DNA of 64,000 nucleotides, taken from NCBI RefSeq assembly GCF_013343295.1, contig NZ_CP049074.1:1903501-1967500 (forward strand), written 5' to 3'. Every line of letters begins with the position of its first letter. Position 1 is the stretch's first letter. Shown in pieces: positions 11,587-52,255 of this stretch. The stretch is from Metallosphaera tengchongensis. Lineage in GTDB: Archaea > Thermoproteota > Thermoprotei_A > Sulfolobales > Sulfolobaceae. Position numbers and translations under genes: made by a program. The notes under the pieces were generated by a model, which saw nothing but the letters and a program-made list of their open reading frames with translations, was not told where the DNA came from and searched no databases.

Positions 11587-11590
11587 CAGG

Positions 11591-21100: not shown

Positions 21101-24100
21101 TTTCAACTCTATGGAAGATCAACTTGCGGGTCACGCGGGGGGGTATGTTCTCGGGTTGTCGTCCTTTCAACTCTATGGAAGATCAACTATAACACTCTCT
21201 CTTACTCACCTTTCGGGATCCACTACTTTCAACTCTATGGAAGATCAACGAAATACGAGGATTACGAACTTCTAGGACAATCGATGGATACCTTTCAACT
21301 CTATGGAAGATCAACTCTAGTAATGATTTTTGCTTTGGTGTATCAAGTCGCAGGCTTTCAACTCTATGGAAGATCAACAGCATTACGTTCGTACGCTGAT
21401 ACGGTTGTGTTCATAGTCTTTCAACTCTATGGAAGATCAACTACGTCCGGCTTGCTAGTGCTCGTCAACTCCGTGCTGCTGACTTTCAACTCTATGGAAG
21501 ATCAACTCTTTGGGCTGTCCAGGGAGTTACTCACGAATAACACTCTTTCAACTCTATGGAAGATCAACCTTCCAACGTTTCAAACGCACATATCATAAAT
21601 GCGCTAAACTTTCAACTCTATGGAAGATCAACGCTTCCTGCAGCAACTGCGCCCTAGTTGACTTTGGTGGTGGTGGCTTTCAACTCTATGGAAGATCAAC
21701 TCAGTAAGGTCAACGTGTACATGGAGAATCACGAAGCAAAAATTACTTTCAACTCTATGGAAGATCAACCTCATAAAAAGTAACGTTGCCGTTGTCGTCT
21801 ATCTCTTTCAACTCTATGGAAGATCAACATGAATGAGAGTTCGCTTGGTTCTAAGATTGAGGAATTAACTTTCAACTCTATGGAAGATCAACGTACGATA
21901 TATTCTACAAGTCCTGTTGAGGCAGATGTATCTTTCAACTCTATGGAAGATCAACGTGTAAACGTCGCCCTAGTACAGTTGAACGTTAAAGTCTCACTTT
22001 CAACTCTATGGAAGATCAACGAGCTGAATGAATGGATCGGATCCAAAAGTGGGCCAGACCTTTCAACTCTATGGAAGATCAACTCGTGTTGACCCACTTC
22101 ACATCTTTACGGTAAGATGCACCTTTCAACTCTATGGAAGATCAACTAACTGGAGGAAATGCAGGAACAGCATTTTGATTAGCTCCCTTTCAACTCTATG
22201 GAAGATCAACCGCTTGTTGTAACTCTTCAGCTGACTCATAACCATACCTTTCAACTCTATGGAAGATCAACCAGTAGGCCGCCTGTGGCAAATTTGACGG
22301 GTAAGGTTTGACTTTCAACTCTATGGAAGATCAACGACTTCACGCGTATAATGGTCTCGTCATCAGTATCCTTGACATCTTTCAACTCTATGGAAGATCA
22401 ACAATGTTCGCTTGAACGGGGACTAGCTTGTCTTCAGGCTTCCTCTTTCAACTCTATGGAAGATCAACTCAAGGGAGCCTGAAGAGGAAGAGGGGAAAGG
22501 GGACTTCAGAGCTTTCAACTCTATGGAAGATCAACGCCAACGTCTGTAGATAAGGCCTCTCTTGTTGAGTCTCGAGCTTTCAACTCTATGGAAGATCAAC
22601 ACGATGTTGTAAAGGTCTCGGAAAGTCGGGTCTGGGTTTTTCCTTTCAACTCTATGGAAGATCAACCGAGTAATAAGTACCCGTTGATTAATATCGACAA
22701 CTATTACTTTCAACTCTATGGAAGATCAACGAGTCTGACGCCTACGAAAGAAATTACGCATATCTATTCCTTCTTTCAACTCTATGGAAGATCAACAACT
22801 ACTTCTCCGTTTACCCAACAAGACGTATCTCTAATCTTTCAACTCTATGGAAGATCAACTTGAGTATCTTAAGCAGGCTCAAGCTCCTCGTGGATAACCT
22901 TTCAACTCTATGGAAGATCAACCCCTTTTTTAATCCTCCCTCTTTCTTCCGCGTATGAGGAACTTTCAACTCTATGGAAGATCAACCAAGGCACCCACAA
23001 CGGTCAGGGGGTCGCCGGTCTCTACACTTTCAACTCTATGGAAGATCAACCCTGGCCGGGCCCACAAAACGCCGTTTCGTGAGAAAGGTTCTTTCAACTC
23101 TATGGAAGATCAACTAAGGGCTGTGTGCAAACTCTTCCGAATCTTTCCTCTGTAACTTTCAACTCTATGGAAGATCAACTTTGAGTTATTCTTAGACGTA
23201 ACTAAAGCTAAGTTGACGACTTTCAACTCTATGGAAGATCAACATACCCCAATTCGTTGCGGTTGGGGTCACGATGAGATGATCTTTCAACTCTATGGAA
23301 GATCAACGCAGTGCCTATTTTGTTGGAACAACATTTTCAATCCCAAGCTTTCAACTCTATGGAAGATCAACGAAGAATAACCCTTTTTTCCCTTTCTCTC
23401 TTTCTGCTTTTTCTTTCAACTCTATGGAAGATCAACTGAATATACCCAACAAGAGACTACACGACGCCGTAAAGCTTTCAACTCTATGGAAGATCAACAC
23501 ATAATTGAAGGTTACCCACAGCCCCACGGTTACCACTTTCAACTCTATGGAAGATCAACTGCTCAAAACGAATAAAGAGCGTATCTATGGAGTCTTTATC
23601 TTTCAACTCTATGGAAGATCAACAAGATGAATTTCCAGAGATTAAATTATTGCATTATCCTAGAACTTTCAACTCTATGGAAGATCAACCAAATGGGCCC
23701 TTCTGGGAAAGCGTCTAAGGGGATATGTCCTTTCAACTCTATGGAAGATCAACAAATACCATCTCGGCGCATATACCGATAACCCCTGCGAACTTTCAAC
23801 TCTATGGAAGATCAACCTTACTGTCGTAAATTCTCATTATATATGCTTGCTCTATCTTTCAACTCTATGGAAGATCAACTTTAGGGGTGAGCGTCATGAG
23901 GCTTACGTATTGTCTGCTCTTTCAACTCTATGGAAGATCAACAGGACTGCCATTATACCTGTAATCCCCGGTCTAGGAATACCTTTCAACTCTATGGAAG
24001 ATCAACGGGGAGGAGCTAGGCCATGGGAAAGATTAGATTAAGAAGACTTTCAACTCTATGGAAGATCAACTACTTGCTAATACTAGCTAATATTAGGTGG

Positions 24101-25357
24101 TTGAAAAACTTTCAACTCTATGGAAGATCAACGAAAAGTTCAGAAGCCAAGTAAAGGGTGAGATCATTGCTGCTTTCAACTCTATGGAAGATCAACAGAA
24201 CGAGCTGACAAAGACCCTACCAGCGCAGAGCGTAGGTCCTTTCAACTCTATGGAAGATCAACCTCTATCACCTTCTTCACATAGTTGGCGTACTTCGTAG
24301 TGAGCTTTCAACTCTATGGAAGATCAACTTCTATTTATCTCTTATCATTAATGTAATAAATAGAAATCTTTCAACTCTATGGAAGATCAACATGACCCCT
24401 ACCTCCTTAATATACGCTGGAGCATCCTCCTCGCTTTCAACTCTATGGAAGATCAACGGATCAAAAACTGAGGTTGATGACTTACTAGAGAAAAAGACTT
24501 TCAACTCTATGGAAGATCAACCCAGTTAAATATCTTGAGTGGTCTCTGTAAGACTTGGTACTTTCAACTCTATGGAAGATCAACTTCTCTAGCTCTTGGC
24601 GTTGCTCTTCAGACATAGGAGAAAACTTTCAACTCTATGGAAGATCAACACGTGGGTCAAAAGCATACTTTATCAACGCGTCTGCTTGGAGCTCTTTCAA
24701 CTCTATGGAAGATCAACTGGGGTCGAGAAAAGGATGGAAGGGGGGAAAGCAAGTTATCTTTCAACTCTATGGAAGATCAACACTACCACCGCATCATGAA
24801 GCTCTTTCTTCACTTTCCAATCTTTCAACTCTATGGAAGATCAACGAGCTAGTGGAGCTGCTCGATCGTTATGCAATGAAACATCTTTCAACTCTATGGA
24901 AGATCAACAGAAGAACGGCGGATATGAGGACTGGAAGGGCAAAGATAACTTTCAACTCTATGGAAGATCAACCTTATCGCCGCCAACACGCCTGCAATCA
25001 CGAGACTGAACCTTTCAACTCTATGGAAGATCAACTTAAGAGAGATAAGAGAAGTTACACCGAGAAGGGGGTCTTTCAACTCTATGGAAGATCAACAAGG
25101 GATGTACTCGACTTCCTACACTCCGCAGGAGTGTATGGCTTTCAACTCTATGGAAGATCAACATACTTCCAAGAACACCCTGGCCACCTCCTTCCTCCCT
25201 TCTTTCTTTCAACTCTATGGAAGATCAACCTAACTCGACTAACGTTCTATATGCTGAATTTGCTGTAATCTTTCAACTCTATGGAAGATCAACGTCGGAG
25301 TGGAAGGAAAAGGATTAACTTAGAAAAAAACATCTTTCAACTCTATGGAAGATCAAC
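18113..25357 (-). CRISPR. CRISPR array 1 (about 114 repeats, 113 spacers)
   Basis: A 24-nt repeat, on the plus strand beginning CTTTCAACTC and ending GAAGATCAAC, recurs every 59-67 bases with unique spacers of about 36-43 nt. By hand I counted 114 repeats. The crRNA sense is the minus strand (GTTGATC...GAGTTGAAAG), so the leader lies at the high-coordinate end. The first six units (18113-18448) carry point changes (CTTTCCACTC, ATTTCAACTCTG, CTTTCATCTC, CTTTCGGCTC), the decay expected at the leader-distal end. All later repeats look identical. Frames reading through it that yield repeated FNSMEDQ, STLWKIN or QLYGRST are not genes. Confidence 0.98.
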
Positions 25358-25417
25358 TGAACATTTATATATCCTTAATTTACTTCAATTTACTCCCTAA
25401 TAATAAGCTTTTTCCTC
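25358..25417 (-). promoter_or_regulatory. Leader-proximal promoter of array 1
   Basis: On the minus strand, the 60 bases just before the first repeat read GGAAAAAGCTTATTATT, then an A-rich stretch, then GGATATATAAATGTTCA directly against the repeat. The TATATAAA box and the TTCA junction are shared with the leader of array 2. TATA spacing predicts a transcript starting within the first repeat. Confidence 0.6.
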
Positions 25418-25558
25418 AACTCACTGACGAATTTTTACTGGAATACCTATCAGTCTTATCATTTCCGTAAGCAGTGGCTGATCTCATTGAAGAATGTTTT
25501 TAGAACGTATCTGTTACTTGAAGGTAAGTAGAGACGAGTTAGCCCTTTATCCAGCAGT

Positions 25559-25900
25559 TATGACGAGGAGCACGGAAAAATGCCTGGTCGACCTTTCCCT
25601 GAACAGGTCCTTGATTAAGCGGTAGAAGGCGATTTGCCCGTCCCTTTCCATGAAAGATATACCCGCGAGCTTTCAATCTCACGTGTTAACCTTACCTCAT
25701 CTCACCCTTGATCCCCGCCTCCATCCCCTAGGGTCCCAACTCTTCCCGACAAAAACCGGGAAACTTACGTCTTTCCTACATATAGAATAGTCTCTGTCGC
25801 TCACGTGGACCCCCTCTACCTTAACGTCGCCCTTCTCCCACTGAGATTGTAGGGACGCTGTCAACACCTCCTCCTAATTAGACCTGGGAAAACTTCACGG
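25559..25900 (-). pseudogene. Decayed coding remnant beside the array 1 leader
   Basis: The minus strand encodes protein-like pieces broken by stops and frame changes. About 25718-25870 reads SQWEKGDVKVEGVHVSDRD and continues to a TGA (VSFPVFVGKSWDPRGW). About 25560-25660 reads ISFMERDGQIAFYRLIKDL and then FRERSTRHFSVLLVITAG, ending at a stop. Codon use resembles real genes, so this is probably a dead gene between the leader and csa1. I do not recognise the family. Confidence 0.3.
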
Positions 25901-25945
25901 TCCGCCTAGTCCAAGTTTAAAGACAACACTGTATTATACAAACAC

Positions 25946-26767
25946 ATGAGGTCTCAGATAACTCGACAGCTCCGAAGGTTACACTCCTACAGGGCCTCAG
26001 ACCCGGTGGACGAGGACCTGAGGGGCTGGAACTACCACACCCCGCCAGTTAAGCCCAGGAGCTACCTGTCCCTGTCCATAGGGGACGTCGCCTACCGGTA
26101 CTGCGAGACTAAGAGGGACGTCTACCTCAGGAAGGTCATAAAGGTAAAGGGTGAGCAGACACCCCTGCTCTCCCTGGGACAACAGGTCCACGAGATTATC
26201 GCCTCTTCCTCCAGGGACATCTCCCGGCTCTTGGCCCAAGGGCTACCCCCTTACGAGGTCCTAGAGGTCGTCGGGAGGAGGAGGTACGGGAACTGCTCAT
26301 CCCCCTACTGCGAGAAGGTCAAGAAGGCGTTCTCCTTCTTCCTCCTTTCCGACGCTTCCGACTCCTCCGAGTTCATACCCATGATCTCCGAGTTCAGGGT
26401 GGACGGGTCCCCCTTAGGGCTGAGCAGGTGGCTTTCGGCTGACGCTGTAGCCCAGCTGTCCATGGTGGTGGAGATCAAGGTCGGGAATCCACAGGACTTC
26501 CACAGGTTAGCCCTCTCGGGGTACGCCCTCGCCCTCGAGAGCGCCCTAGAGCTACCCATCGACTTCGGCGCTCTCATCTACGTGAACGGGCTCAACAACA
26601 GGTTCCCAGACATCAGGACGGAGGTGTATTACATCTCCACGGACTTAAGGAAGGAGTTCCTGGACGCCAGGGACGAGGTCATAGAGATGGTCATCGAGGA
26701 GAAGGACCCCGGGCTCTCCAGTAGTTGCTCCACAGGGTGCCCTTTTTACTCTTACTGTAAGAAGTGA
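25946..26767 (+). CDS. csa1: Csa1, Cas4-like Fe-S nuclease of the type I-A adaptation module
   Basis: A 273-residue protein of the Csa1 branch of the Cas4/RecB-like nucleases. Active-site elements are visible: His82 in LGQQVHEII, Asp166 in LSADAVA, and Glu176/Lys178 in VVEIKVG (PD-(D/E)xK). Cys53 (YRYCETK) and the C-terminal cluster CSTGCPFYSYC (261, 265, 271) would hold the Fe-S cluster. It trims or selects spacer precursors for Cas1-Cas2. A TATA-like GTTTAAAG lies about 26-30 bp before the ATG. It heads the adaptation genes just inside the array 1 leader, with a 474-bp gap to cas1. Confidence 0.85.
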   Translation: MRSQITRQLRRLHSYRASDPVDEDLRGWNYHTPPVKPRSYLSLSIGDVAYRYCETKRDVYLRKVIKVKGEQTPLLSLGQQVHEIIASSSRDISRLLAQGLPPYEVLEVVGRRRYGNCSSPYCEKVKKAFSFFLLSDASDSSEFIPMISEFRVDGSPLGLSRWLSADAVAQLSMVVEIKVGNPQDFHRLALSGYALALESALELPIDFGALIYVNGLNNRFPDIRTEVYYISTDLRKEFLDARDEVIEMVIEEKDPGLSSSCSTGCPFYSYCKK

Positions 26768-27241
26768 TGGTGAGGTGAGGTCAACGTCTCACGGGTTTAA
26801 GATTCGAGGCCCTTGGTCGGGCTTAGGGGGTGACGTACCCTTTCCGCTTGAGAAAGTGGAGCTGACCTGGCCGGATATGTCAACGTGTCCAGGGCCTGAC
26901 GCGTCCCTTCCTCTCCTGGATCTGGTACTCACCCACGCATATCCGACCTACAACGGCCTCTCTCGGCACTCCCCCAGGGCTATCGCTCACCGCTGCACGA
27001 CTCGGTACTTTCAGGATGTCCTTGGAGGGCTGCAAAAATTCCTAAGAAGTCAAGGCTGCATGACCCTGGGCCCTCACGGGTTAAACGGGGCCTCCAGGGG
27101 GTGGATAAGGCCTCCCCGTTCTTCACAGGGCTATCAAGTAGGTGTTACCCCTGCACGACTGGGGACCGTGGACGGGCAGCTCCGCTCACCTCTAGACCCC
27201 AAAAGAGGGACGTGCCCTAGGTCAGAGGAGGGTGTTTCCAG
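26768..27241. other. Gap between csa1 and cas1
   Basis: 474 bases, unusually long inside an adaptation cluster. One plus-strand frame is open through it but its translation is Pro/Gly/Arg-rich and unlike a folded protein, so I do not call a gene. GC-rich short inverted stretches are present (GGGGCCTCC near 27086, GGCCTCCCC near 27108). A purine-rich GAGGAGGG (27224-27232) is the ribosome-binding site of cas1. Confidence 0.35.
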
Positions 27242-28156
27242 TTGAAGGTCCTCGTGGTCTCTCAGCACGGCTCCTACGTCACGGTGAACAAGGGGCTCTT
27301 CCTGGTCAAGGGGAAGGACAACTCCAAGTTCGAGGTCTCCCCCGCGGAGGTAGACGAGATCCTGCTCATATCCACAGCGACCATCTCAGCGAGGGCAATA
27401 CAGTTGGCCCTGACCCACGCCATCGACATCTTTTTCATGAACTCCAGGGAGGACGTGTGGGGTAAGGTCATGTCCAGCTCAACTACCATGACCGTGGACA
27501 CCAGGAGGTCCCAGTACGAGGCCGTGGTCCAGGGAAGAGGGGAGGAGTACGGGAGGGAGATCATCTCAGCCAAGGTAGAGAACCAGGCGTCCCACCTACT
27601 CCACTGGTCGAGACAGGGCTACAGGACTTCCCACAAGGTTCTCGACCAGTACAACGAGGCGACAGCCGCGAGGCTATACTGGCAGGATCTGGCCACCGTA
27701 GTCCCCAGGGACTTGAAGTTCCAGGGAAGGGACCACGACTCCCAGGACCAGTTCAACGTCTCCCTTAACTACTCCTACGCCATCCTATACAACAGGGTCA
27801 TGAGGTACCTGACCCTCGTGGGCCTGGACCCCTACCTAGGCTTCGTCCACAAGGAGAGGTCGGGTAACGAGAGCCTTGTCTACGACTTTTCAGAGATGTT
27901 CAAGCCCCTCATAGACTTCTCCCTAGTGAAGGCGTTCAGGCAGGGTTTCAGGGTGTCACTGACCAAGGGCCTGCTGGACGGGGAGAGTAGGGCGAAGCTA
28001 GCGAGCCTGGTAATAAACGCGCTTGAGGAGAAGGTCAAGGAGAAACACGACGACCACACTAAGACCTTGAACCAGGCAATTAAGTCCCACGCCGTGAGGT
28101 TAGCCAGCGCCCTCAGAGAGAGGAGGGGCTACAGGGGCTTCAGGGCGAAGCTCTAG
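27242..28156 (+). CDS. cas1: Cas1 integrase
   Basis: A 304-residue Cas1 starting at TTG, chosen for the strong upstream GAGGAGGG and the standard N-terminal strand KVLVVSQHGSYVTV. The catalytic triad is visible: Glu139 in NEATAARLYWQ, His203 in LGFVHKERSG, and Asp215/Glu218 in YDFSEMFKP. Cas1 with Cas2 integrates new spacers at the leader end of the arrays. Its stop is one base before cas2. With two outward-facing leaders on either side of this module, one Cas1-Cas2 set probably feeds both arrays. Confidence 0.95.
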   Translation: MKVLVVSQHGSYVTVNKGLFLVKGKDNSKFEVSPAEVDEILLISTATISARAIQLALTHAIDIFFMNSREDVWGKVMSSSTTMTVDTRRSQYEAVVQGRGEEYGREIISAKVENQASHLLHWSRQGYRTSHKVLDQYNEATAARLYWQDLATVVPRDLKFQGRDHDSQDQFNVSLNYSYAILYNRVMRYLTLVGLDPYLGFVHKERSGNESLVYDFSEMFKPLIDFSLVKAFRQGFRVSLTKGLLDGESRAKLASLVINALEEKVKEKHDDHTKTLNQAIKSHAVRLASALRERRGYRGFRAKL

Positions 28157-28157
28157 G

Positions 28158-28442
28158 GTGAAGGTATTGATGCTCTTGGTCATATACGACGTGAGCGATA
28201 ACGGGAAGAGGACAAGGTTGGCGAACTCCCTGAAGAGGTACGGAATGTCCAGGATACAGAGGAGCGCCTTTAAGGGGGAGGTGGACAGCCAGAGGGTGAA
28301 GGACCTGATCAGGCTGATAAGGAGGGAGGTGGACCAGACTGACGTGGTGCACCTAGTTCCGCTGGACCCGAGGAACTGGGAGATGAGGGTGGTCATAGGG
28401 GATGAAGGGGGACGGAATGACGGCCCCGCGACGGTGGTATAG
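28158..28442 (+). CDS. cas2: Cas2, structural partner of Cas1
   Basis: A 94-residue protein with the ferredoxin-fold start MLLVIYDVSDNGKRTRLANSL, including the conserved Asp in YDVSD, and the following RIQRSAFKGEV strand. It starts at GTG one base after the cas1 stop, so the two are co-translated. Cas2 bridges two Cas1 dimers in the integrase. The C-terminal tail (EGGRNDGPATVV) is slightly longer than in many homologues. An inverted-repeat structure follows before cas4. Confidence 0.93.
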   Translation: MKVLMLLVIYDVSDNGKRTRLANSLKRYGMSRIQRSAFKGEVDSQRVKDLIRLIRREVDQTDVVHLVPLDPRNWEMRVVIGDEGGRNDGPATVV

Positions 28443-28461
28443 GGTGGCGTGCGAGGGATCT

Positions 28462-28492
28462 GGACCAGTGGGAGACCCCACTCACCCGGTCC
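28462..28492. other. Hairpin between cas2 and cas4
   Basis: GGACC (28462-28466) pairs with GGTCC (28488-28492), and inside it AGTGGG (28467-28472) pairs with CCCACT (28477-28482) around a 4-nt AGAC loop, with a 5-nt bulge. An 11-bp GC-rich stem at this place could slow or end transcription between cas2 and cas4, or set their relative levels. Confidence 0.4.
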
Positions 28493-28562
28493 ACCCGGTG
28501 GGAGTTGTCCCCACCTTGACCTTCATGAGGCGTGGAATTCCCTTACGGAGGTGAAATAGACC

Positions 28563-29093
28563 GTGGAGGGACCTGGCGTCAATGTCACCGTGACTGACCT
28601 AAAGGACTTCTACCTCTGCAAGGCTATCCCGTGGATCAGGAGGAGGCTAGGGTGGAGGGAGCCGATCACCTACAGCGTGGCCATGGGGAAGGAGGGAGAG
28701 GTACCTAGGTTGGAGGGGGCGAAGTACGAGGTCCTCCTGTGGGACCCTGCCACGGCGTTGGTGGGAGTTGTCGACGCCATAACTGAGGACAGGGTCTACG
28801 AGTTCAAGAGGTTCACGAGGGGTAAGGTGGGCCACTTCAGGCTCCAGCTCTTGGCTTACGCGTACCTAGCCAACAGGAACGGGTATAAAATAAGGGAAGC
28901 AGTGCTACTGATGAACGGTGAGGAGAGGCTAAGGATCGAGGTCAACGAGAACCACTTGGGTTACGTGAGGGACTTGACCAAGAAGATAAGGGAAGAACTG
29001 TCTCTTGACAAGCCCCCCGTAGTGTACCCCTCCAAGAGGTTGTGTGAAGTGTGTCAGTACAAGAGGGTGTGCCTGTCCACACCATATTATTGA
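28563..29093 (+). CDS. cas4: Cas4 Fe-S exonuclease
   Basis: A 176-residue Cas4 starting at GTG behind a good GGAGGTGA site. It has Cys19 in FYLCKAIPW, the PD-(D/E)xK residues Asp71 (GVVDAI), Glu80 and Lys82 (YEFKRF), the QLLAYAYLA helix and the C-terminal CEVCQYKRVC (161, 164, 170) for a 4Fe-4S cluster. Cas4 processes prespacer ends and fixes PAM orientation during adaptation. It is the second Cas4-family nuclease of the module beside Csa1, the usual pairing in Sulfolobales type I-A. Confidence 0.9.
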   Translation: MEGPGVNVTVTDLKDFYLCKAIPWIRRRLGWREPITYSVAMGKEGEVPRLEGAKYEVLLWDPATALVGVVDAITEDRVYEFKRFTRGKVGHFRLQLLAYAYLANRNGYKIREAVLLMNGEERLRIEVNENHLGYVRDLTKKIREELSLDKPPVVYPSKRLCEVCQYKRVCLSTPYY

Positions 29094-30066
29094 AGGGCTT
29101 CGTGGTGGAGCTAGGGTGAAGCCGCTGGAGGTCAGTACATGTTAATACCTTAATACGCCTCCCCGAGAAGCTTGCTCTGGTCTGCTTAGTCTCTAGGGTT
29201 GACGTCATGGCCAGTCGGTGTCCCTAATACCCTCCCAAGGGAGACATGCCTCTTTATCTAACTACGTAAAGCTTTCAAGGTAGCGGTTTGCGTTTAATAT
29301 AATTTGTAAGACTTTAGCTTTTTTTTTTTAAAAATTAACCGTTTTAGGACTTTAAGGTAGTTACTTCCAACTTTCACAGTCCTTGACCACACATATAGAT
29401 TACGTTGTAATAGACCTGCCCTTTCCACTTTAGTTTCAGGGTTGTTTGAGGGCCTACCCCACATTTCAGATAGTGTGAAATACCCAGACGTGACGACTAG
29501 ACCCTTTCCACCTCCTCTAAATGGAAGAGTGGTAGCCTATTCTAGTAAAATTCATGACCCCCATCCCCACCTGTCCCATTTGTCGAGGAGCCCAGAGGGC
29601 TATACTGAACAACTTAAGGGACACCCAACCTCATAATCACAACTAGGACGATGAAAATACTTGGAACCGTTCACCCCAACTCCACTGCCATGTTTAGTAC
29701 AACGATAAGGTGAGTAGTGAGGTAAAGATAAGCGATCTAGACCTCTTATCCTAGCTTTACGCAAAACAGTCGAGGTCGGTGGGGACCTTAAGCCAGCACC
29801 CCATCCCTCACCGTCCATTTTCACTAGCCCTCTAACCCACAAGTGTAGATAAAAGTGAGGGAAGCCAAACGTCCAAGGCTAAGTACAGATGGTACTAACA
29901 TGTTTAGACCTCCGTCAAGTAGTTATTACGATTTTAATGTCGGATCCAGACGGGGCCTGCCCGAATTTGTATTATTTAATGAATCTTTACTTCTCCGAAA
30001 CCCTTTTTAACGCCATTTCTATTGGTGACCGAAACTCTTTTTAAATGTTATTCACAAAAAATTGAG
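29094..30066. other. Intergenic stretch between cas4 and the kinase
   Basis: About 970 bases without a credible gene. It contains a T11 run at 29319-29329 and, near the right end, a TATA-like CTTTTTAAATG (about 30038-30048) placed 26 bp before the kinase ATG. No repeats of the large arrays are present. Confidence 0.4.
29319..29329 (+). terminator. Poly-T tract downstream of cas4
   Basis: A run of 11 T lies 226 bp after the cas4 stop. Oligo-T on the non-template strand is the main intrinsic termination signal in archaea, so this is the likely end of the adaptation transcript. No hairpin is needed or seen. Confidence 0.45.
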
Positions 30067-32208
30067 ATGTCAAGCAGTTCAAGTGACAAGGGAAAAAGAC
30101 TTGTAGCTTTCATAGCAGTGTTCAGTTTCATCTTTACTACCCTCTATTACCTTGTTTCGGGCCTTTTACCAGCAATAGCTAACGGTTTGACTAGGGGTGA
30201 CCTTTTCAACAGCGTCCTTAGCGTCGTGAACAGTAAAAATAGCCCGATCATATATTCTAGTACTGTAGTTGACAGTAATGGGGTTGTTAAGCTCAGCCTA
30301 ATTGTCTACGCTGTGTTCGAAAACCCAGTGAGCGTATTAAACCTAGCTATTTTAGGATTGCCACACGTCCCAGGAGGAGGTACTCTACTCTTCGGAGGAG
30401 GGTTAGTCAACCTGATCTCTGGGGGGATATTTGCTTACTTTTATAGGAGGTCTAAGGGAGTCCTTATATCATCAATTTCGTTAATAAGCAATAGTATTAT
30501 ACAAGCGTTCATCACCTCGAGAATCTCCTCTGACCCTCCCTTTTATTCGCTTTTTTCAATGTCTGAAGCTTTACTTTTCGTTGTCGGGCAAGTCATAGCA
30601 GGTACTGAGCTCTACAGAGAGAACAAGGTCAAGGCTATACTGGTCTCCTTCCCCTTCTTTTCCTTATTGAATATATTAGGCTTCGGTTGGCTGATCTCTG
30701 ACGCGTTTAACGGGGCTCAGACGCACTCGTCCGGGGCGCAGCAGTACGTCCCACCTAGCACGACCCAAAACTATAACGACTATGACGCTCTGGTTGGAGC
30801 GCTGCGTAATGGGGATAGCGCTGAGGCTAGGATGTACATCTCTGAGTTGCAGGCTGACGGGTTCGCAATAGAGGACATATTGGACCAACTGGTCAACGAT
30901 GGAGAGTGTAGGGGGGCAATATGGGTGATGGACAACTACACTCTAGACTTTGGAAAATTAAAAGATTCTAGTGTAGTCGACTGCATAGTCGAGGCTCGAA
31001 GAGTCCCCAAGAGTGTAGTCAGCCTTCTAGAGTCCTTGGACAAGACCAGCGTGGAAAACGCGTTAAGGTTAGCCAAGTTCATTTATTATAATACTAACTT
31101 AAGCGACAGCAGAAGGGATAAGGCCGAGGAAATACTGGTCAAGCACTCAGTAATCCAAAGAGGCAATCCTCCTGCATCTCCTCAGCCTAAACCTGGTTCT
31201 ACCATGCCTACTCTCGACAGGTGGGACCCTAACCTGTGGGTCGGGAAGGAGGTCTATGGCTATACTATCGAGAGGGTTTTAGGGGTGGGCGGGACTTCTT
31301 ACGTCCTGTTAGCTAAGACTGGTGATGAGCAGTACGCGATAAAGGTACCCATACTCTCTTATTCGCCTACGCAAGCTACGAAGGTAAGTAGCCTGACCTT
31401 CCAGGACATTTATAAGGAGTCCTCAAACTTACAGAGGTTGTCAGAGCATGGTAACGTTGTTAGGATATTTGGTATGTTCCTTGACATGAACTTGTTGAAA
31501 AGGGTCGAGAGGGGTGAGGTCGCGTATTATTTGTCTAACCCCCCTGCTATTGTGATGGAGTACATGGGCGGTGGGAGTTTAAGTACTCTAGTCAACGAGG
31601 ATACGGTGTTCTTCTCCACCCGTTGGGTCGATGTCCTTAGGACCGTGTTCCTGAAGGTGGGTAAGGCCCTGGACTACCTCCACAAGAGTGGTTACGTCCA
31701 CTTGGACGTAAAACCTCAAAACATTTTCTTTAGTAGGCCTTTGGGTGGGACCGGTGAGGAGGTCTACGACAGTCTGGTTAAAGGTCACGCTGAGGTCAAG
31801 TTAGGGGACTTGGGCTCCGCTAGGAGGGCTGGGGAGAGGGTAACGCAGTACACTGCTCAGTACTGCCCTGTTGACCAAGTCAAGGCTATGGTCCTCGGTA
31901 AGGCTGACCCGTCGATGGACGTGTACTCTTTTGGGGCCTCCCTTTACACTGCGTTGACTAGGAGGTATTTTAACCCTCAAGAGCTGGTCAAGTTGATGGA
32001 CGATGCTGTAGATGACTATGCGAGAAAGGGGAGCAGTTTCTTGAGTATCTTGAGGGAGGCTGAGGAGAAGTACGCGAGATATTATAACGGTGAGTTGAGG
32101 ACATCTCTCTCTAGTTACCCAGATAATTTAAGAGAGGTCATTTTGCTCGCCACTGACCCAGACCCTAATAAGAGGCCTAGGATGGGCTATATCATAAGCC
32201 TACTTTAA
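30067..32208 (+). CDS. Membrane-anchored eukaryotic-type Ser/Thr protein kinase
   Basis: A 713-residue protein. Residues 10-35 and several stretches to about 215 are hydrophobic, giving about five or six membrane segments. A helical linker (about 230-370) and a Pro-rich hinge (PPASPQPKPG) follow, then a C-terminal kinase domain. The kinase shows the G-loop LGVGGTSYVLLAK (about 405), Lys in YAIKVP (about 426), the catalytic loop VHLDVKPQN (about 544-552) and GDLGSAR in place of DFG. All are compatible with an active kinase facing the cytoplasm. ATG 30067 lies 26 bp from a TATA box. Its placement between the adaptation genes and array 2 is unexplained; the kinase may be a passenger. Confidence 0.85.
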   Translation: MSSSSSDKGKRLVAFIAVFSFIFTTLYYLVSGLLPAIANGLTRGDLFNSVLSVVNSKNSPIIYSSTVVDSNGVVKLSLIVYAVFENPVSVLNLAILGLPHVPGGGTLLFGGGLVNLISGGIFAYFYRRSKGVLISSISLISNSIIQAFITSRISSDPPFYSLFSMSEALLFVVGQVIAGTELYRENKVKAILVSFPFFSLLNILGFGWLISDAFNGAQTHSSGAQQYVPPSTTQNYNDYDALVGALRNGDSAEARMYISELQADGFAIEDILDQLVNDGECRGAIWVMDNYTLDFGKLKDSSVVDCIVEARRVPKSVVSLLESLDKTSVENALRLAKFIYYNTNLSDSRRDKAEEILVKHSVIQRGNPPASPQPKPGSTMPTLDRWDPNLWVGKEVYGYTIERVLGVGGTSYVLLAKTGDEQYAIKVPILSYSPTQATKVSSLTFQDIYKESSNLQRLSEHGNVVRIFGMFLDMNLLKRVERGEVAYYLSNPPAIVMEYMGGGSLSTLVNEDTVFFSTRWVDVLRTVFLKVGKALDYLHKSGYVHLDVKPQNIFFSRPLGGTGEEVYDSLVKGHAEVKLGDLGSARRAGERVTQYTAQYCPVDQVKAMVLGKADPSMDVYSFGASLYTALTRRYFNPQELVKLMDDAVDDYARKGSSFLSILREAEEKYARYYNGELRTSLSSYPDNLREVILLATDPDPNKRPRMGYIISLL

Positions 32209-32983
32209 ATACTTTTATGGAGTGATTAACTAATTTCATATTAGGTACATGACGACTTCTACAAAATAAATGACGCTCAACGACCTTACGGAGCCGGTGA
32301 CGTGGGAGATGAAATAAATCAGAAAATGACGAAAGACTTTCTTTCTAGACAGAGAACTGTTAGAGGAATAAGCTCACGCTTGGACAAGAGTTGCTGAACT
32401 AGTTTATAAGTAAGCATAGCCAGCGAAGAGAAAGGGAGTTACCTCATGAACCTCTCACACAAGTCTATAGTATCCAAGGACTCAGGCCCCGTAAAAGTCC
32501 ATGTACCTGAAAAAGAATTGATATATTCTAGGTCGACATCTTTGCTTAGCATGATAGCGGACCGTGACCGAAAAAATCATTTCTTCATTATACTACAGAT
32601 GGCGTGGTGAAAATTAAAAAGAGAAAAGTAGAGAAACCACGTCTTAAAATTAGTGAGACCTGATCACCCTCTTCGACCCCTCTCCCTTAAGTAGAAGAAT
32701 GAGAGGGGGGTTAAGGCCCCCAGGTCCCTGCCCTAAAGGGTCTTGCCGAGGTTTAAAGGGTTACTGCCCTCTGTTGCTCCTTCTGACATTAAGAGGAAAT
32801 AGAAGGGCCCTTTAGCACACTTAGTCTAGGTAAGCCGTCCTTTTTATTTTATCAGCGTTAAGTGGGGTCTGCATCGCATTATTCTCGCGCAGAGATTGGT
32901 TGAAGAGTTTTACAGTTCACCGTTGTGGCTTGCACGACTTATTACTAGTAGCATTTATATATTAGTAAATTAAATAGTAGAAT
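32209..32983. other. Intergenic stretch before vapBC
   Basis: About 775 bases with no recognisable gene. A TATA-like TTTATATATTAG (about 32951-32962) precedes the antitoxin ATG by 26 bp and is probably the toxin-antitoxin promoter. Confidence 0.4.
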
Positions 32984-33217
32984 ATGGAGAGGGTCAAGGT
33001 AACTAGGAACTACCAGATGACTATCCCCTCTACTGTAAGGGAGGCTTTAGGGATAAAAGAGGGAGACATCTTAGAGGTCTACGTCGAGGGCGATAGGATA
33101 GTGATAAAGAAGGTCAAGTCTAAGAGACCTAGGATAAGGCTCAATAGACCCGTAACCTTGGAGTATATAGAGGAGAGCGTAGAGAGAGGTATGCATGAAA
33201 GTCTTAGTGGACACTAA
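32984..33217 (+). CDS. vapB: VapB-type (AbrB/SpoVT fold) antitoxin
   Basis: A 77-residue protein with an N-terminal swapped-hairpin AbrB DNA-binding domain: VKVTRNYQMTIPSTVREALGIKEGDILEVYVEGDRIVIKK. The acidic C-terminal tail would occupy the toxin's active site. VapB neutralises the PIN ribonuclease encoded next door and represses the pair. The ATG is 26 bp behind a TATA box. The 3' end overlaps vapC by 23 bp in another frame, typical of coupled toxin-antitoxin genes. Confidence 0.88.
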   Translation: MERVKVTRNYQMTIPSTVREALGIKEGDILEVYVEGDRIVIKKVKSKRPRIRLNRPVTLEYIEESVERGMHESLSGH

Positions 33218-33587
33218 CGTTATCATTTTTGACCTCATAGAGGACTCACAGTTCCACAGGGAGGCTGAGGAGCTACTAGACACGGCAGATACTTGGGTAA
33301 TACCCTCTATAGTTATCCACGAACTGGTATGGTTCTTGAGGGCTAACAACATTGAGGACTTAGAACACGTATCTGCCTACTTAGAGGACCCAAAGGCTGA
33401 GGTCGTCTGTGATGATTATGAAGTAATAAGGAAGACATTTGAGATAATGACCAGAGAGAGGCTATCACTCTCTAGATACAACGACGTGGTTATACTCGCC
33501 CACGCTATACTTAAAAGATTACCACTCGCTACCTTTGATAAGAGGCTCTCCAGTCTAGCCAAGAAATACGGTATAACCAGCGTATAG
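33195..33587 (+). CDS. vapC: VapC PIN-domain toxin ribonuclease
   Basis: A 130-residue PIN protein. The acidic residues are present: Asp6 (VLVDTNVI), Glu43 (VIHELVWFL), Asp near 96 (RYNDVVILAHA) and Asp near 114 (ATFDKRL). VapC cuts RNA when free of its antitoxin. It overlaps vapB by 23 bp. Such pairs are very frequent in Sulfolobales and often accompany mobile or defence regions; they may help keep the CRISPR locus from being lost, but this is inference. Confidence 0.9.
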   Translation: MKVLVDTNVIIFDLIEDSQFHREAEELLDTADTWVIPSIVIHELVWFLRANNIEDLEHVSAYLEDPKAEVVCDDYEVIRKTFEIMTRERLSLSRYNDVVILAHAILKRLPLATFDKRLSSLAKKYGITSV

Positions 33588-34862
33588 GACTGACCCTAAA
33601 GGAGCGTACTACTGAGGTTAAGTACTCCATATGTGTTAGTACTGGCTCAACTTTGACCCCAAACACTAGCCTCAAATTTCACCCTCCTCCCTATCAATTG
33701 GTTAAAACGCTCTGAGGTGGAGGCACGTCTACAGCACGAACAGTAGTCTCACCAAAGAGGAGCAAGTCGGGCTTGAGACTTTTATCTCCTGTTCAGTAGC
33801 TTAAGCTTACAACGTAAGAGGTAGTGGGCCCAGAGCTGTGGGGTAGAAGCACTTACGTAAAGTGTAAGGTAGTCGTTTAGGAACGGACCAGTATTTTTAT
33901 CGCGGGGTCTTTAACAGGTAAGACGCGACTGGCTACAGACTAAAGACTGAGGAGATCAACAATATAGGAGGGACCAGATATCGCCAGTCCGTATCGTCAC
34001 GTGTCCAGCGTAGACTATAGGAGTTTTCGTCAGCTCTGGGGTTCTGGGTTCCTAGGATTTCACATAACTTGATACTTATGTTTGGGCTCCGGAGTCAAGT
34101 GAATTTTCGACTCCACCCTCCTCCCATTAGCGTGGTAACTAGACCATACAGAGGGTACCGTCTAAGCGGGGGGAACCCGCACATCTTGGGCTGTCCATAT
34201 CCCAGCCTTTTGTGACGCATACCCACATCTGGCATCATCTAAAAATTTGGATGGAGTTGTCTCACCTCCTCCCCGCCCTGCGAGGGTCCCGCTGAGGTCT
34301 GAGGCGTTTTCCCCTTTACGGAGTTACTCCGTTAGAGGAGACGAGGTAGGAAACAGGTTTTTAACTTGACCACACCTCTCCTGGTCCCCAGTTCCATTCA
34401 TAATTTCATTGTGTTTGAAGCTACATTAACGTCCTGTGGAGCTTATGACCTAAAGGGCAGTCGACGACTCCCTAGGCTTCCTCGCAACTACGACCTCGTG
34501 AAGAGAGTAGAGTAGGGGTGTCGTACTCCACAACTAGAGACACCTTTATGACCTACTCGTAGAGCTTGCATTCAACGGCGCCAGTTAACTAGGAAGTCCT
34601 CCATACGATGCGGTGAGAGGAGTACGACGTGACCCCGTATTGGTGTACCCCTCCTCTCCACCCCATACCACGGTCGTGTCTAGTGGGTAAGGCGGTAAGT
34701 CTAAAACTTAACTGTATTTCGAGTACCACCTCGCTATCTAGTCCAGAAATACTAGGTTTCCTCCAAGCTAGGGGTTTCCACAACGTCCCCGGGTGTAGAT
34801 GGATGCCCCTAGAGGTCTCACGCGCAGGCACGCACACCCAGCGAGGCGACCCACTGACAGCC
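33588..34862. other. Long gene-free stretch with weak repeats
   Basis: About 1.27 kb without a credible gene. Stretches near 33640-33720 and 34030-34150 resemble each other weakly (CACCCTCCTCCC shared) and resemble 47635-47760 (AACTTGATA followed by similar C-rich text), which hints at old copies of a mobile element. No intact inverted repeats were seen. Confidence 0.3.
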
Positions 34863-35561
34863 CTACCCCTTCCCTTCCCCTCCGGGACTTCCCCCAGGCT
34901 TTTTGTATTCCCCTCCCAACTTGACGACTAACAGGGCCCTACCGAGCTCCGTCAGCTCCACCCCCCTGTCCTTCCCCCTCAAGTTCAGGAGGCCCCTCTT
35001 CTTGAGCTCTGACACCCTGTTCACCACCGTCTTCTCGCTCTTCCCCAGCCCCTTAGCCAGGTCGCTGAGGGCGACCCCTTCGCCCTTCCCCACAGTCATG
35101 AGCAACCTCATGTCCTCAGCGGTGTAGTCCTCGAGTAGGCTGTAGACCTCCTCCCCCCTGACCACGACCTCGCTCCCCTCCCCGGTCTCGTTGAAGAAAT
35201 ACGCGACGAAGGGCCTCCTCGTGGATATAAGTGAGAGCAGTATCACTGTGTCCATCAGGCGCAGTCCTAGGCTGAGGTTGGTGTACACGAACCCCTTGCT
35301 CCTGCCCACTATCATGGCGACCTGGGAAAGGGTCTTGGGGAAGTCCCCGACCTCTATCTCCTCAACTTTGGGCTCTGGGTAGCGCATGCGGTAGCACGTA
35401 GCCCTCAAGCCCTCTATTGCGTCGGCTACCCCACCTACAACGGGCCTAGGCACTACTATGACCAGCTCGTCTTCCTTAGAGGCGTTAGTCCTAGCGAGGA
35501 GCCTTAGCATGAACGACTCGTGGAAGCCCATAGTGCTGAGGTAGGTCTTACTTTCGGTCAT
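34863..35561 (-). CDS. csa3: Second Csa3-type CARF-winged-helix regulator
   Basis: A 232-residue protein. The N-terminal CARF fold begins KTYLSTMGFHESFMLRLLAR and has a conserved loop GFVYTNLSLGLRLMDTVILL near residue 90. The C-terminal winged helix is at about 155-215 (VALSDLAKGLGKSEKTVVNRVSELKKRGLLNLRG). It is only distantly similar to the Csa3 at 9482-10132. By position next to the array 2 leader and near cas1-cas2-cas4 it is the likely regulator of adaptation genes or the array promoter. A TATA-like GTTTATATC on the minus strand lies 26 bp before the ATG. The C-terminal tail is Gly/Pro/Lys-rich. Confidence 0.83.
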   Translation of the reverse strand: MTESKTYLSTMGFHESFMLRLLARTNASKEDELVIVVPRPVVGGVADAIEGLRATCYRMRYPEPKVEEIEVGDFPKTLSQVAMIVGRSKGFVYTNLSLGLRLMDTVILLSLISTRRPFVAYFFNETGEGSEVVVRGEEVYSLLEDYTAEDMRLLMTVGKGEGVALSDLAKGLGKSEKTVVNRVSELKKRGLLNLRGKDRGVELTELGRALLVVKLGGEYKKPGGSPGGEGKG

Positions 35562-36216
35562 GCCTGAATTATAGGGACTGGAGATATAAACTTTTTGTTG
35601 AAAAAGGTGTTGGCATGTCCCTAACTATTCCCGTGGAGGAACGTCTGAGGTGGACAAGGTTGGGCCCACCTTTCAGGGGTCTTCCATTCTCTACATTAAA
35701 ATAACGTTGTATTCCCAACTTTAGTTGAGAAGCGGTGGAGACAAACGGGTAGGGCTGGGACCAGGGATGGGGTTGAGAAAGAGATACGTTAATCACGGAT
35801 TCCTCAAGGTAGTTAGTAAGGTGTCGTAGTCTAGAGAAGAGACAGAGATACGTTACTCAAGGACTAAGGAGATGTTCGCGTGTCTGAAGAAGACCTCTGA
35901 CTCCAGCACGAGTCCTGCAGATTCCTTAGAAGTTCAGTCGGATCCCGTGACGTGAAGACCTCTGACTCCAGCACGAGAGACGTTAATTAGGGACTGAGAA
36001 CCTAGCTAGCTCCCCCTCATAGTGTTTCAGTGGGAGCACGTTAATCACGGACTGTGCCAAGAAGGCCCAGGGCAGGACCTTGACAAATGGGGGCAACACA
36101 GACCTCCTTTTCCTTGGGGACCAGGAAGCCGAGAAAATAGGAGCGGGACGTAGTTGAGCTAGGTAAGTATGTCTCTGTAGTTTGTTCGCTTGACGTCTAT
36201 TGGCAAGATATGAAAT
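35562..36216 (+). promoter_or_regulatory. Distal leader region of array 2 with internal repeats
   Basis: About 650 bases between csa3 and the promoter-proximal leader, without a gene. It holds two perfect copies of a 24-nt unit (35889-35912 and 35954-35977; starts GAAGACCTCTGACTCC) 65 bases apart. It also holds four copies of a motif like ACGTTAATCACGGACT (about 35786-35800, 35850-35865, 35979-35995, 36038-36053). Such repeated words in a leader could bind adaptation proteins or a regulator such as Csa3. Confidence 0.5.
35889..35977. repeat. Perfect 24-nt direct repeat in the array 2 leader
   Basis: Units at 35889-35912 and 35954-35977 are identical (begin GAAGACC, end CAGCACGAG) with 41 intervening bases. 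The unit is unrelated to the CRISPR repeat and lacks the GAAAG end. Length and spacing mimic a CRISPR period, but there are only two copies and they lie inside the leader. Confidence 0.7.
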
Positions 36217-36275
36217 AAGGAAAAATTTATTATGGATAAAGTGTATAAGATAATCAGGAGGTATATAAACATTCA
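36217..36275 (+). promoter_or_regulatory. Leader-proximal promoter of array 2
   Basis: The last 60 bases before the first repeat read GGAAAAATTTATTATGG, an A-rich stretch, then AGGTATATAAACATTCA directly joined to the repeat. This aligns with the array 1 leader over the A-rich start, TTATTAT, TATATAAA and TTCA. The TATA box ends only about 6 bp before the repeat, so transcription should begin inside the first repeat-spacer unit. Confidence 0.6.
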
Positions 36276-39200
36276 GTTGATCTTCCATAGAGTTGAAAGA
36301 TATATTTCTCCATCCTTAGTCTTCACTACATCATAGAGTTGATCTTCCATAGAGTTGAAAGAGTCCCGTAGGCAACGCAGTTGAGCTGTTCAGCGAGCGT
36401 CTGTTGATCTTCCATAGAGTTGAAAGAAGATTGAGTATATTTTTAGTAATGAAGAGGGAAAGAAAGGTTGATCTTCCATAGAGTTGAAAGGTAGTATTAG
36501 AGTTTTATGGTAACATGTATGATTCTGTATGTTGATCTTCCATAGAGTTGAAAGAACTTCATTAAAGCTAAAACAGCAGAGGATGAGCAGTTATGCTTGT
36601 TGATCTTCCATAGAGTTGAAAGGCATCAACATAAGGCAGGCGGGTGAGAGGGACCAGTTTAGTTGATCTTCCATAGAGTTGAAAGAATTGCACGGTTGGA
36701 CTTATACGTCTGTTAGAATCTAAGTTGATCTTCCATAGAGTTGAAAGCGGGTCCCGCGCGCTTTCGAGTGTGTGTCTTCTTCTGTTTGTTGATCTTCCAT
36801 AGAGTTGAAAGTACCGGGCTGTCTGCAAGCTAGACTAGTAATTCAGTATACGAGTTGATCTTCCATAGAGTTGAAAGTTGGACAGAGCATCGTTACAGGT
36901 ATAAACACAATTTACAGTTGATCTTCCATAGAGTTGAAAGTCCTTATTAGGACATCGTACTTATTTGCGAGAGGCAGGTAGTTGATCTTCCATAGAGTTG
37001 AAAGATGCGACGTGGACGCTTGTTTTCAGGCTCTATGAGCCCAGTTGATCTTCCATAGAGTTGAAAGCAAGATAAGGGACATCGCTAAGTCGAGGTTGTT
37101 CGACCTGTTGATCTTCCATAGAGTTGAAAGATCGGCAACTGATAGGCTAGCCACACATGAACTAACGACTGTTGATCTTCCATAGAGTTGAAAGACCAAC
37201 GCACTCTTGTTCTCTCTTAACGTCATTATACTTGTTGATCTTCCATAGAGTTGAAAGCCCCTTCTACGATCAATTCAACATTTCCCCCTCGGGGAAACGT
37301 TGATCTTCCATAGAGTTGAAAGATACTTACTAGGGACGACGTAGTACTCACTTACCCCATCGTTGATCTTCCATAGAGTTGAAAGCATCATAAACTCGAT
37401 CTTGTCCTTAAACTCCACCAACAAGTTGATCTTCCATAGAGTTGAAAGTTCGTTGTGGGTCGTGATGAACAGCTTCTTTTTCGCTTTGGGTTGATCTTCC
37501 ATAGAGTTGAAAGGTGGAGAATCCCCACTTGAGTAGAGCCTCTCTCACATGAGTTGATCTTCCATAGAGTTGAAAGTTAAGGGAAGGGGATATTTCCCTC
37601 CTTCCTACAGGATGTTGTTGATCTTCCATAGAGTTGAAAGTTCTACACTTTTGTAGAACGTTTAGAAAACTATTTCTTTCGTGTTGATCTTCCATAGAGT
37701 TGAAAGATACGTTCAGCTATCTCAGTCAGGGTCATCTGTTCATTTGTTGATCTTCCATAGAGTTGAAAGCTAGGCCGTTGCCCATGGGGTCGTTGTAGCG
37801 ATAGTGCGCGTTGATCTTCCATAGAGTTGAAAGACCCCGCATACTCCAGCGATTAGAAGGGAGGTCTTTCCTAAGTGTTGATCTTCCATAGAGTTGAAAG
37901 TTTTCTTCTCTAGCAGATCATCAACCTCAGTTTTGCTACCTTCGTTGATCTTCCATAGAGTTGAAAGTAAAGTGAAGTGAAACATGGCTTTGCAATACTA
38001 TTACAGTTGATCTTCCATAGAGTTGAAAGATTGACGCACCCCTCACGATTAACCCTGTCGCGTTACCTAGTTGATCTTCCATAGAGTTGAAAGTATGTTC
38101 CAAGTCATGCTTATTTGGGTCATGAAAAGAGTGGTTGATCTTCCATAGAGTTGAAAGCTATTCCCTGGATATGTTGTAGATGATAAATTGATTCCCCAGT
38201 TGATCTTCCATAGAGTTGAAAGAGACCCAGGTCTTGTAACCAAGGTGGTGGAAACGGGGGACGTTGATCTTCCATAGAGTTGAAAGACCTCCTCCTCGAT
38301 CTGGTCTAATAGCTTCTTGATCTCTTGTTGATCTTCCATAGAGTTGAAAGCTCCCTCCTCATGAGCGACCTGAGGTCACTCCAGAGTTCTGGGTTGATCT
38401 TCCATAGAGTTGAAAGTGAGGTAATAGTACTCACTACCTTCTACAGGCGAAGTTGATCTTCCATAGAGTTGAAAGAGCAAGAAGAGAAAGCCCTGCCCGA
38501 TACTCAACTTAGGTGTTGATCTTCCATAGAGTTGAAAGTTTTCCTCATCACCATTCACCTCCTGAGGTCTTGAATAATTGTTGATCTTCCATAGAGTTGA
38601 AAGCTCTTCATTGATCTTCACGAAACCCATAGCTTCCAGGTCGAGTTGATCTTCCATAGAGTTGAAAGCTGCAGCGCTTGTTCCCTCTTGATAGCCAACT
38701 CTGCGATAGTTGATCTTCCATAGAGTTGAAAGTGAATATAGTAAGGTGTTGGGGCAGACAGGGAAGTATATCGTTGATCTTCCATAGAGTTGAAAGTTCC
38801 CTCACTGTTGTACTCAATTGTCACCAAATCGAATAATGTTGATCTTCCATAGAGTTGAAAGTCATGGTTAAGTTGATGATAAATTTATTAGTGCGATTTA
38901 GGTTGATCTTCCATAGAGTTGAAAGGAACTCCATGTACCTCACGTAAAAGTAGTCAGCCATAAGCCGTTGATCTTCCATAGAGTTGAAAGTCTTAAAAGT
39001 TACTCTATCAGGAATACAAAAAATATCTGTGTTGATCTTCCATAGAGTTGAAAGCCTCTAATTGTCCAAATTCCAAGATTCTCACCATCTAGTTGGTTGA
39101 TCTTCCATAGAGTTGAAAGTTTCATACGGTATCCTTAAAAACTTTGCTAATTGCAACTTGTTGATCTTCCATAGAGTTGAAAGACTCAAAAAGTTGTACA

Positions 39201-45200: not shown

Positions 45201-46528
45201 AAAGCGAATGTATGTAGTGTACTACGTATTTGTCATGAAGTAGGTTGATCTTCCATAGAGTTGAAAGGTCTCTTTAATCTTCTCTCTACATTCTTAAGAA
45301 AGTCATGTTGATCTTCCATAGAGTTGAAAGGCTTTCTGATTCTTCTCTCCATGCTTTTCAGAAAGTCATCCAGGTTGATCTTCCATAGAGTTGAAAGCTT
45401 GATATATCTGAAACTACTGTAGAAAATACTGCTTCTAAGTTGATCTTCCATAGAGTTGAAAGTTTACTTGAAAGATAGACCACAACCTTAGGTAGATATT
45501 AACCCGTTGATCTTCCATAGAGTTGAAAGCTTCCTCCACTCCCGACTGTGATTGATGCCGATGAACCTCCGTTGATCTTCCATAGAGTTGAAAGTTTAAT
45601 GGCAGGTGCCCTGCATGTTAACATCACGTTGATCTTCCATAGAGTTGAAAGAGATGGGATGGAATATGTTTGCGATCGTACTACTTGCTTTGTTGATCTT
45701 CCATAGAGTTGAAAGCTTTCAAGAGGAGTATGATACAACGCGGTATGAGCCCAGTTGATCTTCCATAGAGTTGAAAGCTTCCTCCACTCCCGACTGTGAT
45801 TGATGCCGATGAACCTCCGTTGATCTTCCATAGAGTTGAAAGTTTAATGGCAGGTGCCCAGAGAGCCCATTCTCCATTTTCTGTTGATCTTCCATAGAGT
45901 TGAAAGGGACTGGAAGAGGGTATTGTGCCTGCCAATGAAGATCCAGTTGATCTTCCATAGAGTTGAAAGTCTGGTATCGCATTTATTTGAATGACCAGTC
46001 TATTTAGTCCTTGTTGATCTTCCATAGAGTTGAAAGCACAAGCTGATCTACACTGTACGTAACACCCTCTACAAGGTTGATCTTCCATAGAGTTGAAAGA
46101 TTTTATCTGCAGGCACACTATGCAACAGCCATACAGCAGTTGATCTTCCATAGAGTTGAAAGCATTAATGGTTCTGAGAGCTCTCTAAACTTGTTAGTGG
46201 TGGTTGATCTTCCATAGAGTTGAAAGCTTCTCCGTAAACTTGAAAATAACATACTGAGGAGGCTTTTTCGTTGATCTTCCATAGAGTTGAAAGACATTGA
46301 ACGTTTGTATAGTTATACTGCTACCAGAGCTACTGTTGATCTTCCATAGAGTTGAAAGTTATACAAATTACCTAATAGGAAACTCTACTATTCTAATGAG
46401 CGTTGATCTTCCATAGAGTTGAAAGAAACATCACTTTGTAGGGTTTATCAGAGGAAGTCAACGTAGTTGATCTGTTTGAGGAGAGGTTTAAAAAAGAACA
46501 GGAGGTTGATCTTCCATAGAGTTGAAAA
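36276..46528 (+). CRISPR. CRISPR array 2 (about 160 repeats)
   Basis: The same 24-nt repeat as array 1, here in crRNA sense on the plus strand (GTTGATCTTCC...GAGTTGAAAG), recurs with unique spacers of about 33-43 nt. By hand I counted 160 units, the last (46505-46528) ending GAAAA. The leader is on the low-coordinate side. The trailer end is decayed: after the unit at 46402 a 79-base interval contains a broken repeat starting GTTGATCTG at 46466. All repeats before that look identical. The array is over 10 kb long. Spacer content includes duplicated and related spacers listed under findings. Confidence 0.98.
45506..45859 (+). repeat. Duplicated 106-bp block inside array 2
   Basis: Bases 45506-45611 and 45754-45859 are identical: repeat, a 41-nt spacer (45530-45570 equals 45778-45818), repeat, and the first 17 bases of the next spacer (TTTAATGGCAGGTGCCC). 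The spacers then diverge, giving a 33-nt spacer at 45595-45627 and a 40-nt spacer at 45843-45882. The breakpoint inside a spacer shows a rearrangement, not two independent acquisitions. Confidence 0.85.
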
Positions 46529-51135: not shown

Positions 51136-51571
51136 CTTTGTTTTTTATCAATTCTAACAGAAAACCGGATCCTTATGAAGGATCCCTATGAAGATCTAGA
51201 CTTTATTAAACAGTAAGAGCGATCACAGTGATTTAACACCTGCTATTGTTCCCAGGATCGAGACAATTTTGCGTTATAAATTTATTCGTCATTAATATAC
51301 TTCAATTCGCGGTACATGATCCCCAGGAGATTCTATACGAAAATATAACGAAGAATGGGAAAGCATGAATAAGGGATTAGAAAGTGTTATAAATATCCAT
51401 ACATGTATAAAATTAGACGTGATATAGAGACGAATGTTTATGTAACGATAGATTAAGGTGATACACGAGCGTTTTTAGTCCATGGCCTATGAGGACCAAT
51501 AAGATATTTTTTATAAGTTGTATACTAAGTGTAAATTAAAGCTTATATATTACTAAAGCTAGATTAAGTAT
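51136..51571. other. AT-rich gap inside the type III island
   Basis: 436 bases of AT-rich sequence with no gene. A short tandem-like GGATCCTTATGAAGGATCCCTATGAAG region sits near 51167-51193 and could form a hairpin. CTTATATATTAC (about 51542-51553) is a TATA box 26 bp before the next ATG. Confidence 0.4.
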
Positions 51572-52249: not shown

Positions 52250-52255
52250 TAATAG

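Follow-up and report, generated by a model that had tools for sequence, protein, structure and literature searches.

Why do two spacers in different arrays of one archaeal genome encode the same short peptide in different codons? The question is raised by a 64,000-nucleotide stretch of Metallosphaera tengchongensis (referred to here as the window). The window belongs to a genome of 2.18 Mb in a single contig, from a Sulfolobales family, and carries two clustered regularly interspaced short palindromic repeat (CRISPR) arrays built from one 24-nt repeat on opposite strands. The spacers in question, designated by their first positions, are 24458 in array 1 and 37901 in array 2, and an original prediction made from the letters alone proposed that the host had met two lineages of one virus and had chosen the same gene site twice. 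We find support for a homologous coding source and for a single site used once per array, and consider it probable (roughly two chances in three) that this site was captured from two homologous copies of one foreign coding sequence.

Both intervals are flanked by 24-nt repeats and are thus spacers. Positions 24458-24497 translate on the forward strand as GSKTEVDDLLEKK, and 37901-37943 on the reverse strand as EGSKTEVDDLLEKK. Over the 40 shared bases 31 are identical, and the nine differences, spread over six of the 13 codons (two, one and six at codon positions one, two and three respectively), alter none of the 13 residues of GSKTEVDDLLEKK; the changes outside the third position are accounted for by a serine exchange, TCA/AGC, and a leucine exchange, TTA/CTG. 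The coordinates, the peptide and the predominance of third-position changes are therefore as originally predicted. As all nine changes are synonymous, derivation of the two spacers from homologous coding sequence is supported.

In the orientation of the CRISPR RNAs (crRNAs) the two spacers begin on the same base (offset 0) and differ in length, the pattern that cutting next to one common protospacer-adjacent motif (PAM) would leave. This common PAM-side start with different distal ends supports the use of one site twice, once in each array. Repeated acquisition at one protospacer of homologous elements is marked by a fixed PAM-side start with a variable distal end and by differences that respect the protein encoded in the source, and both marks are present. 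Two of the nine mismatches fall within the first five PAM-side bases, and neither spacer sits at the old end of its array. The polarity of the arrays makes both crRNAs antisense to the frame, in agreement with the original prediction; it is read from the GAAAG end of the repeat, which adjoins the spacer, and from the degenerate repeats at 18113-18425 of array 1, and for array 2 is supported by one spacer whose protospacer has CCG on its 5' side. Similarity of the two leaders was considered as proof of orientation and set aside, its global score of 12.0 lying inside the shuffle range (maximum 14.5).

The resemblance of the two spacers is not due to chance. All 272 intervals of the two arrays (including the last of array 2, which at 79 nt is probably no normal spacer) were compared without gaps, all against all and on both strands, with 20 dinucleotide shuffles as control. 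The three best non-identical pairs, 40036/44698, 24458/37901 and 45268/45331, score 22, 17.5 and 9.0 respectively, and all lie at offset 0 in crRNA orientation; shuffle maxima are 5.5-9.0 at any same-strand offset and no higher than 2.5 at offset 0, and none of the 20 shuffles reached 17.5. Scored as protein, the first-named pair reaches 54 at offset 0 and the neighbouring spacers 45268 and 45331 reach 38, the best values at that offset; other offsets give at most 33. When nine substitutions were placed at random in the 24458/37901 pair, the translation of some open frame was unaltered in one of 5,000 sets, and none reached the observed protein score.

The other two array 2 pairs differ in character. 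Spacers 40036 and 44698 agree at 34 of 42 nt, with five amino acid changes and neither open frame codon-constrained, and the neighbours 45268 and 45331 agree at 27 of 39 nt and encode DFLKNVERRLKR and DFLKSMERRIRK on the opposite strand. The comparison was widened to six Sulfolobales genomes, the window's own and five others of the family that were sampled in part (13 strand-arrays from fetched stretches), together supplying 1,099 spacers. At a score of at least 8 there are 11 pairs at offset 0 versus three across offsets 1-6, and ten shuffles gave no such pair at offsets 0, 3 and 6. At a score of at least 12.5 there are ten pairs in exact register (three identical, seven diverged), two at other same-strand offsets, one of which is an exact 25-base overlap, and one on opposite strands. 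Among eight pairs assessed, codon constraint is strong in 24458/37901 and clear in four others, by residue changes or by BLOSUM score; it is weak or absent in 40036/44698 and in a cross-genome pair (4822 of an M. sedula-like genome with 7842 of G072), and uninformative in one pair with two differences only. Codon constraint is thus not upheld as a general rule for in-register pairs.

Some array 2 spacers are related in other ways. One spacer is exactly duplicated three spacers away (45530-45570 and 45778-45818) and codes for a Gly/Ser-rich stretch, and the spacers at 44122-44159 and 44825-44862 share the motif IGNIT[QE]TA at a shift of 12 bases. A repetitive structural protein may have been the single source of 44122, 44825 and 45530.

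The PAM was read from spacers with a match to the bicaudavirus ATV or to ATV2. Eight distinct spacers of the 1,099 match ATV or ATV2 stretches at 80% or more, and all eight have CC at -3/-2; the one from the window's genome is 41245, which matches ATV2 at 35 of 39 nt behind CCG. The CCN motif is read from this set of eight, 41245 among them, rather than from the 24458/37901 pair, for whose sites it would hold by extension from these other spacers. Spacer 41245 is in register (31/39) with a spacer of G159, a genome of a different genus, and the target of both is a large ATV2 gene in which the site is present four times, each behind CCG. Three of these copies are 38-39/39 alike, and the fourth agrees with the others at 28-29 of 39; the closest fit of 41245 is to the three (35/39), that of the G159 spacer to the fourth (33/39). 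In the ATV version of the gene the site is likewise present four times, preceded by CCG or CCA. This ATV2 gene (168-4202 of a fetched stretch covering ATV2 52900-57200) has four CCN-preceded FPWSQIGY sites and is hit by spacers of the window's genome, of the M. sedula-like genome and of G159.

The source of the 24458/37901 pair was sought in IMG/VR, INPHARED, PLSDB and the GTDB genomes, at the patterns and sensitivities used, and these collections may lack records closely related to the window's genome. In IMG/VR the full peptide GSKTEVDDLLEKK has no match, and the patterns EVDDLLEK (8 matches), KTEVDDLL (13), GSKTEVDD (2) and a relaxed GSKTE-form (1) gave none that extends to the spacer peptide; DTTANNV, taken from another pair, is found in 66 stretches, none with the following residues. 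Eight stretches of GTDB contigs matched, none archaeal by title. Each spacer alone against INPHARED at E values up to 10 gave short bacteriophage matches only, among the matches listed (20 of 85 and 24 of 24 records). Both arrays, array 2 being split in two, were also compared with INPHARED, and array 1 and the greater part of array 2 with PLSDB; neither comparison found the source. For the condition that the original prediction named as refuting, the lack of a coding match in viruses, the outcome is thus empty rather than negative. A self-target or provirus was rejected, as only the two spacers themselves were recovered at up to three mismatches in 31 family genomes, and again when 197 genomes of the order were searched for exact matches to a shorter pattern. 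A chromosomal gene of G114 that matches 23 of 24 bases of the array 1 spacer over a 24-base stretch was considered as a host source and judged a coincidence; it is small, adjoins a cdc6-like gene and is conserved in 27 of the 31 family genomes without the full peptide. That the source was a virus or plasmid would follow as the default from known spacer biology rather than from a match.

A fusellovirus integrase used as a hook for further Sulfolobales virus contigs returned one locus, SMF1 itself (KC618393). SMF1 contains a single near-copy (23/24 bases) of the CRISPR repeat of the window's genome, at about 3007-3031 of the fetched stretch (L012), between the integrase and a DnaA-like gene and with no second copy in the contig. 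Archaeal viruses with stand-alone CRISPR repeats are mentioned in PMC6858448.

In the explanation we favour, the type I-A adaptation machinery would have taken the same site into array 1 and array 2. The site would lie on the antisense strand behind a CCN PAM, so that in the gene ...EGSKTEVDDLLEKK would be followed by an ANG codon and then by G. The two copies would most likely be orthologues from two related lineages that the host encountered on separate occasions. Given the nine mismatches and the PAM-side position of two of them, one spacer would probably protect poorly against the other allele, and keeping both would be worthwhile. Three points weigh against this explanation. No protospacer for 24458 or 37901 was recovered from the four collections, leaving the PAMs and the foreign origin to be deduced; two of the seven diverged in-register pairs are not codon-constrained (40036/44698, P 0.78; 4822/7842, P 0.34); and orthologues in two lineages are indistinguishable from two repeat copies in one genome. 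In an alternative that we regard as rather unlikely, a single virus or plasmid has a gene or gene family with diverged repeats of the site and no second lineage is needed. The ATV2 gene is such a case, with four CCG-preceded copies of the 41245 target at identities down to 28/39, and a KTEVDDLL-like motif is repeated in four of the 13 IMG/VR frames that contain it; in the other nine the motif is present once, the resemblance to KTEVDDLL is short and may be accidental, and no source element is known to repeat GSKTEVDDLLEKK. As the four diverged copies in ATV2 lie in one gene, the two lineages of the original prediction are not forced for the 24458/37901 pair either.

Explanations that dispense with a second capture from coding sequence fare worse. 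Duplication of a spacer between the arrays by recombination, followed by mutation in place, has precedent, in that spacer-repeat duplication and inter-locus recombination are reported in the Sulfolobales (PMC4390879) and array 2 itself has an exact duplicate; yet spacers are not translated, and the finding that all nine changes are synonymous, matched by one in 5,000 random sets, is hard to reconcile with mutation in an array. The lengths also differ, with new sequence at the distal end, and the all-against-all scan, beyond which flanking spacers were not systematically compared, contains no duplicated block, so that we hold duplication to be very improbable. Least credible of all is a chance likeness of unrelated spacers. 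Coiled-coil-like peptides rich in K, E, D and L do recur by chance, as in the G114 gene, but a score of 17.5 versus at most 9.0 in 20 shuffles, exact register and complete synonymy speak strongly against it here.

Capture of one site twice could also reflect an intrinsic preference of the adaptation machinery for some protospacers that survives divergence of the target, a suggestion we regard as doubtful. Among the diverged pairs seven are in exact register and three overlap but are shifted, whereas under uniform choice of PAM sites shifted pairs should outnumber same-site pairs by a factor of about 1.5-2.8, giving P of about 0.005-0.05 depending on the assumed CC density. The threshold was set at the shuffle maximum, the seven pairs themselves served to estimate power, and one of the pairs counted is that against ATV, with a target repeated within its gene; the result is a weak hint only. 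With 272 draws from 5,000-10,000 sites, uniform choice would itself yield some 4-7 same-site pairs, so that repeats of one site are unsurprising. PMC3839810 describes selection that is random overall, yet with a single dominant spacer per locus that is reproducible between experiments.

The features of the window are listed below. The effector genes Csa5/Cas11a, Cas7, Cas5a and a split Cas3 identify a type I-A system, and Cas1 with Cas4/Csa1 an adaptation module, in which Cas2 was not identified; these genes are sited between and beside the two arrays. Together with the CCG behind which 41245 matches ATV2, they agree with the CCN subfamily of Sulfolobales type I-A systems. A 728-residue protein (30022-32208), whose Ser/Thr kinase domain is similar to the defence kinases MAD6 and PD-T4-6, lies between the adaptation genes and array 2, a CARF-PIN protein (16329-17579) adjoins array 1, and a HerA-like ATPase (5647-7440) is upstream of the type I-A genes.

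Coordinates of the spacers, arrays and cas genes discussed, in positions of the window
Feature	Position	Strand	Remarks
Array 1 spacer	24458..24497	-	40 nt; 14th of 113 counted from leader; crRNA antisense to GSKTEVDDLLEKK
Array 2 spacer	37901..37943	+	43 nt; 26th of 159 counted from leader; crRNA antisense to EGSKTEVDDLLEKK
Array 2 spacer	40036..40077	+	In register with 44698-44739
Array 2 spacer	44698..44739	+	Partner of 40036-40077
Array 2 spacer	41245..41283	+	ATV2 match, PAM CCG
Array 2 spacer	45268..45306	+	In register with neighbour 45331-45373
Array 2 spacer	45331..45373	+	Partner of 45268-45306
CRISPR array 1	18113..25357	-	114 repeats, 113 intervals; six degenerate repeats 18113-18425 at old end
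CRISPR array 2	36276..46528	+	160 repeats, 159 intervals; repeat identical to that of array 1
Cas6	8571..9425	-	
Type I-A effector genes	10221..15522	+	Cas11a/Csa5, Cas7, Cas5a, Cas3', Cas3'', CsaX
Adaptation genes	25946..29093	+	Csa1/Cas4 (25946), Cas1 (27242), Cas4 (28563)
Csa3 regulator (CARF)	34863..35561	-	
Type III-like effector genes	50281..57266	+	Cas7-like, Cmr7, Csm3-like, Cas10

The pair fits a new instance of a known process, the ordinary repeated taking of memory beside CCN. In Sulfolobus, PAM-side ends are homogeneous and distal ends heterogeneous with spacer lengths of 36-43 (PMC3468723), an 'imprecise molecular ruler' measures from the PAM end and CCN is the PAM of subfamily-1 type I-A (both PMC4390879). 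The present pair resembles type I-A acquisition in Sulfolobus (PMC3468723, PMC3839810) in its fixed PAM-side ends, variable distal ends, lengths within 36-43 nt, predicted CCN PAM, use of several loci and repeated taking of a protospacer; it departs from that laboratory uptake from one plasmid sequence in coming from a natural genome, with copies that differ at 9 of 40 bases. As in the mismatched spacers of S. islandicus (PMC6452263), virus alleles that differ from present ones would be recorded, although that work compared spacer with virus, whereas here spacer is compared with spacer and no virus is in hand. One register-locked pair here targets an ATV/ATV2 gene, like the spacers of M. sedula and S. 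solfataricus directed against ATV (PMC4390879); unlike these, the 24458/37901 pair has no ATV match. Overlapping spacers are described as rare in natural Sulfolobus strains in PMC3468723, and a literature search, with subscription papers mostly outside it, returned no paper on synonymously diverged in-register spacer pairs in natural Sulfolobales arrays.

The comparison of spacer with spacer in crRNA register can reveal part of a coding sequence, the frame in which it is read and where the PAM probably lies, for an invader that has not been sequenced, and makes the predicted continuation of its gene falsifiable. The presence of two alleles at a site is no proof of two virus lineages, as repeats inside a single gene leave the same trace. 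Site preference in natural arrays can be tested simply through the excess of register-locked pairs, and if such a preference is real, hosts, even of different genera, would return to the same codon-level site as virus genes evolve.

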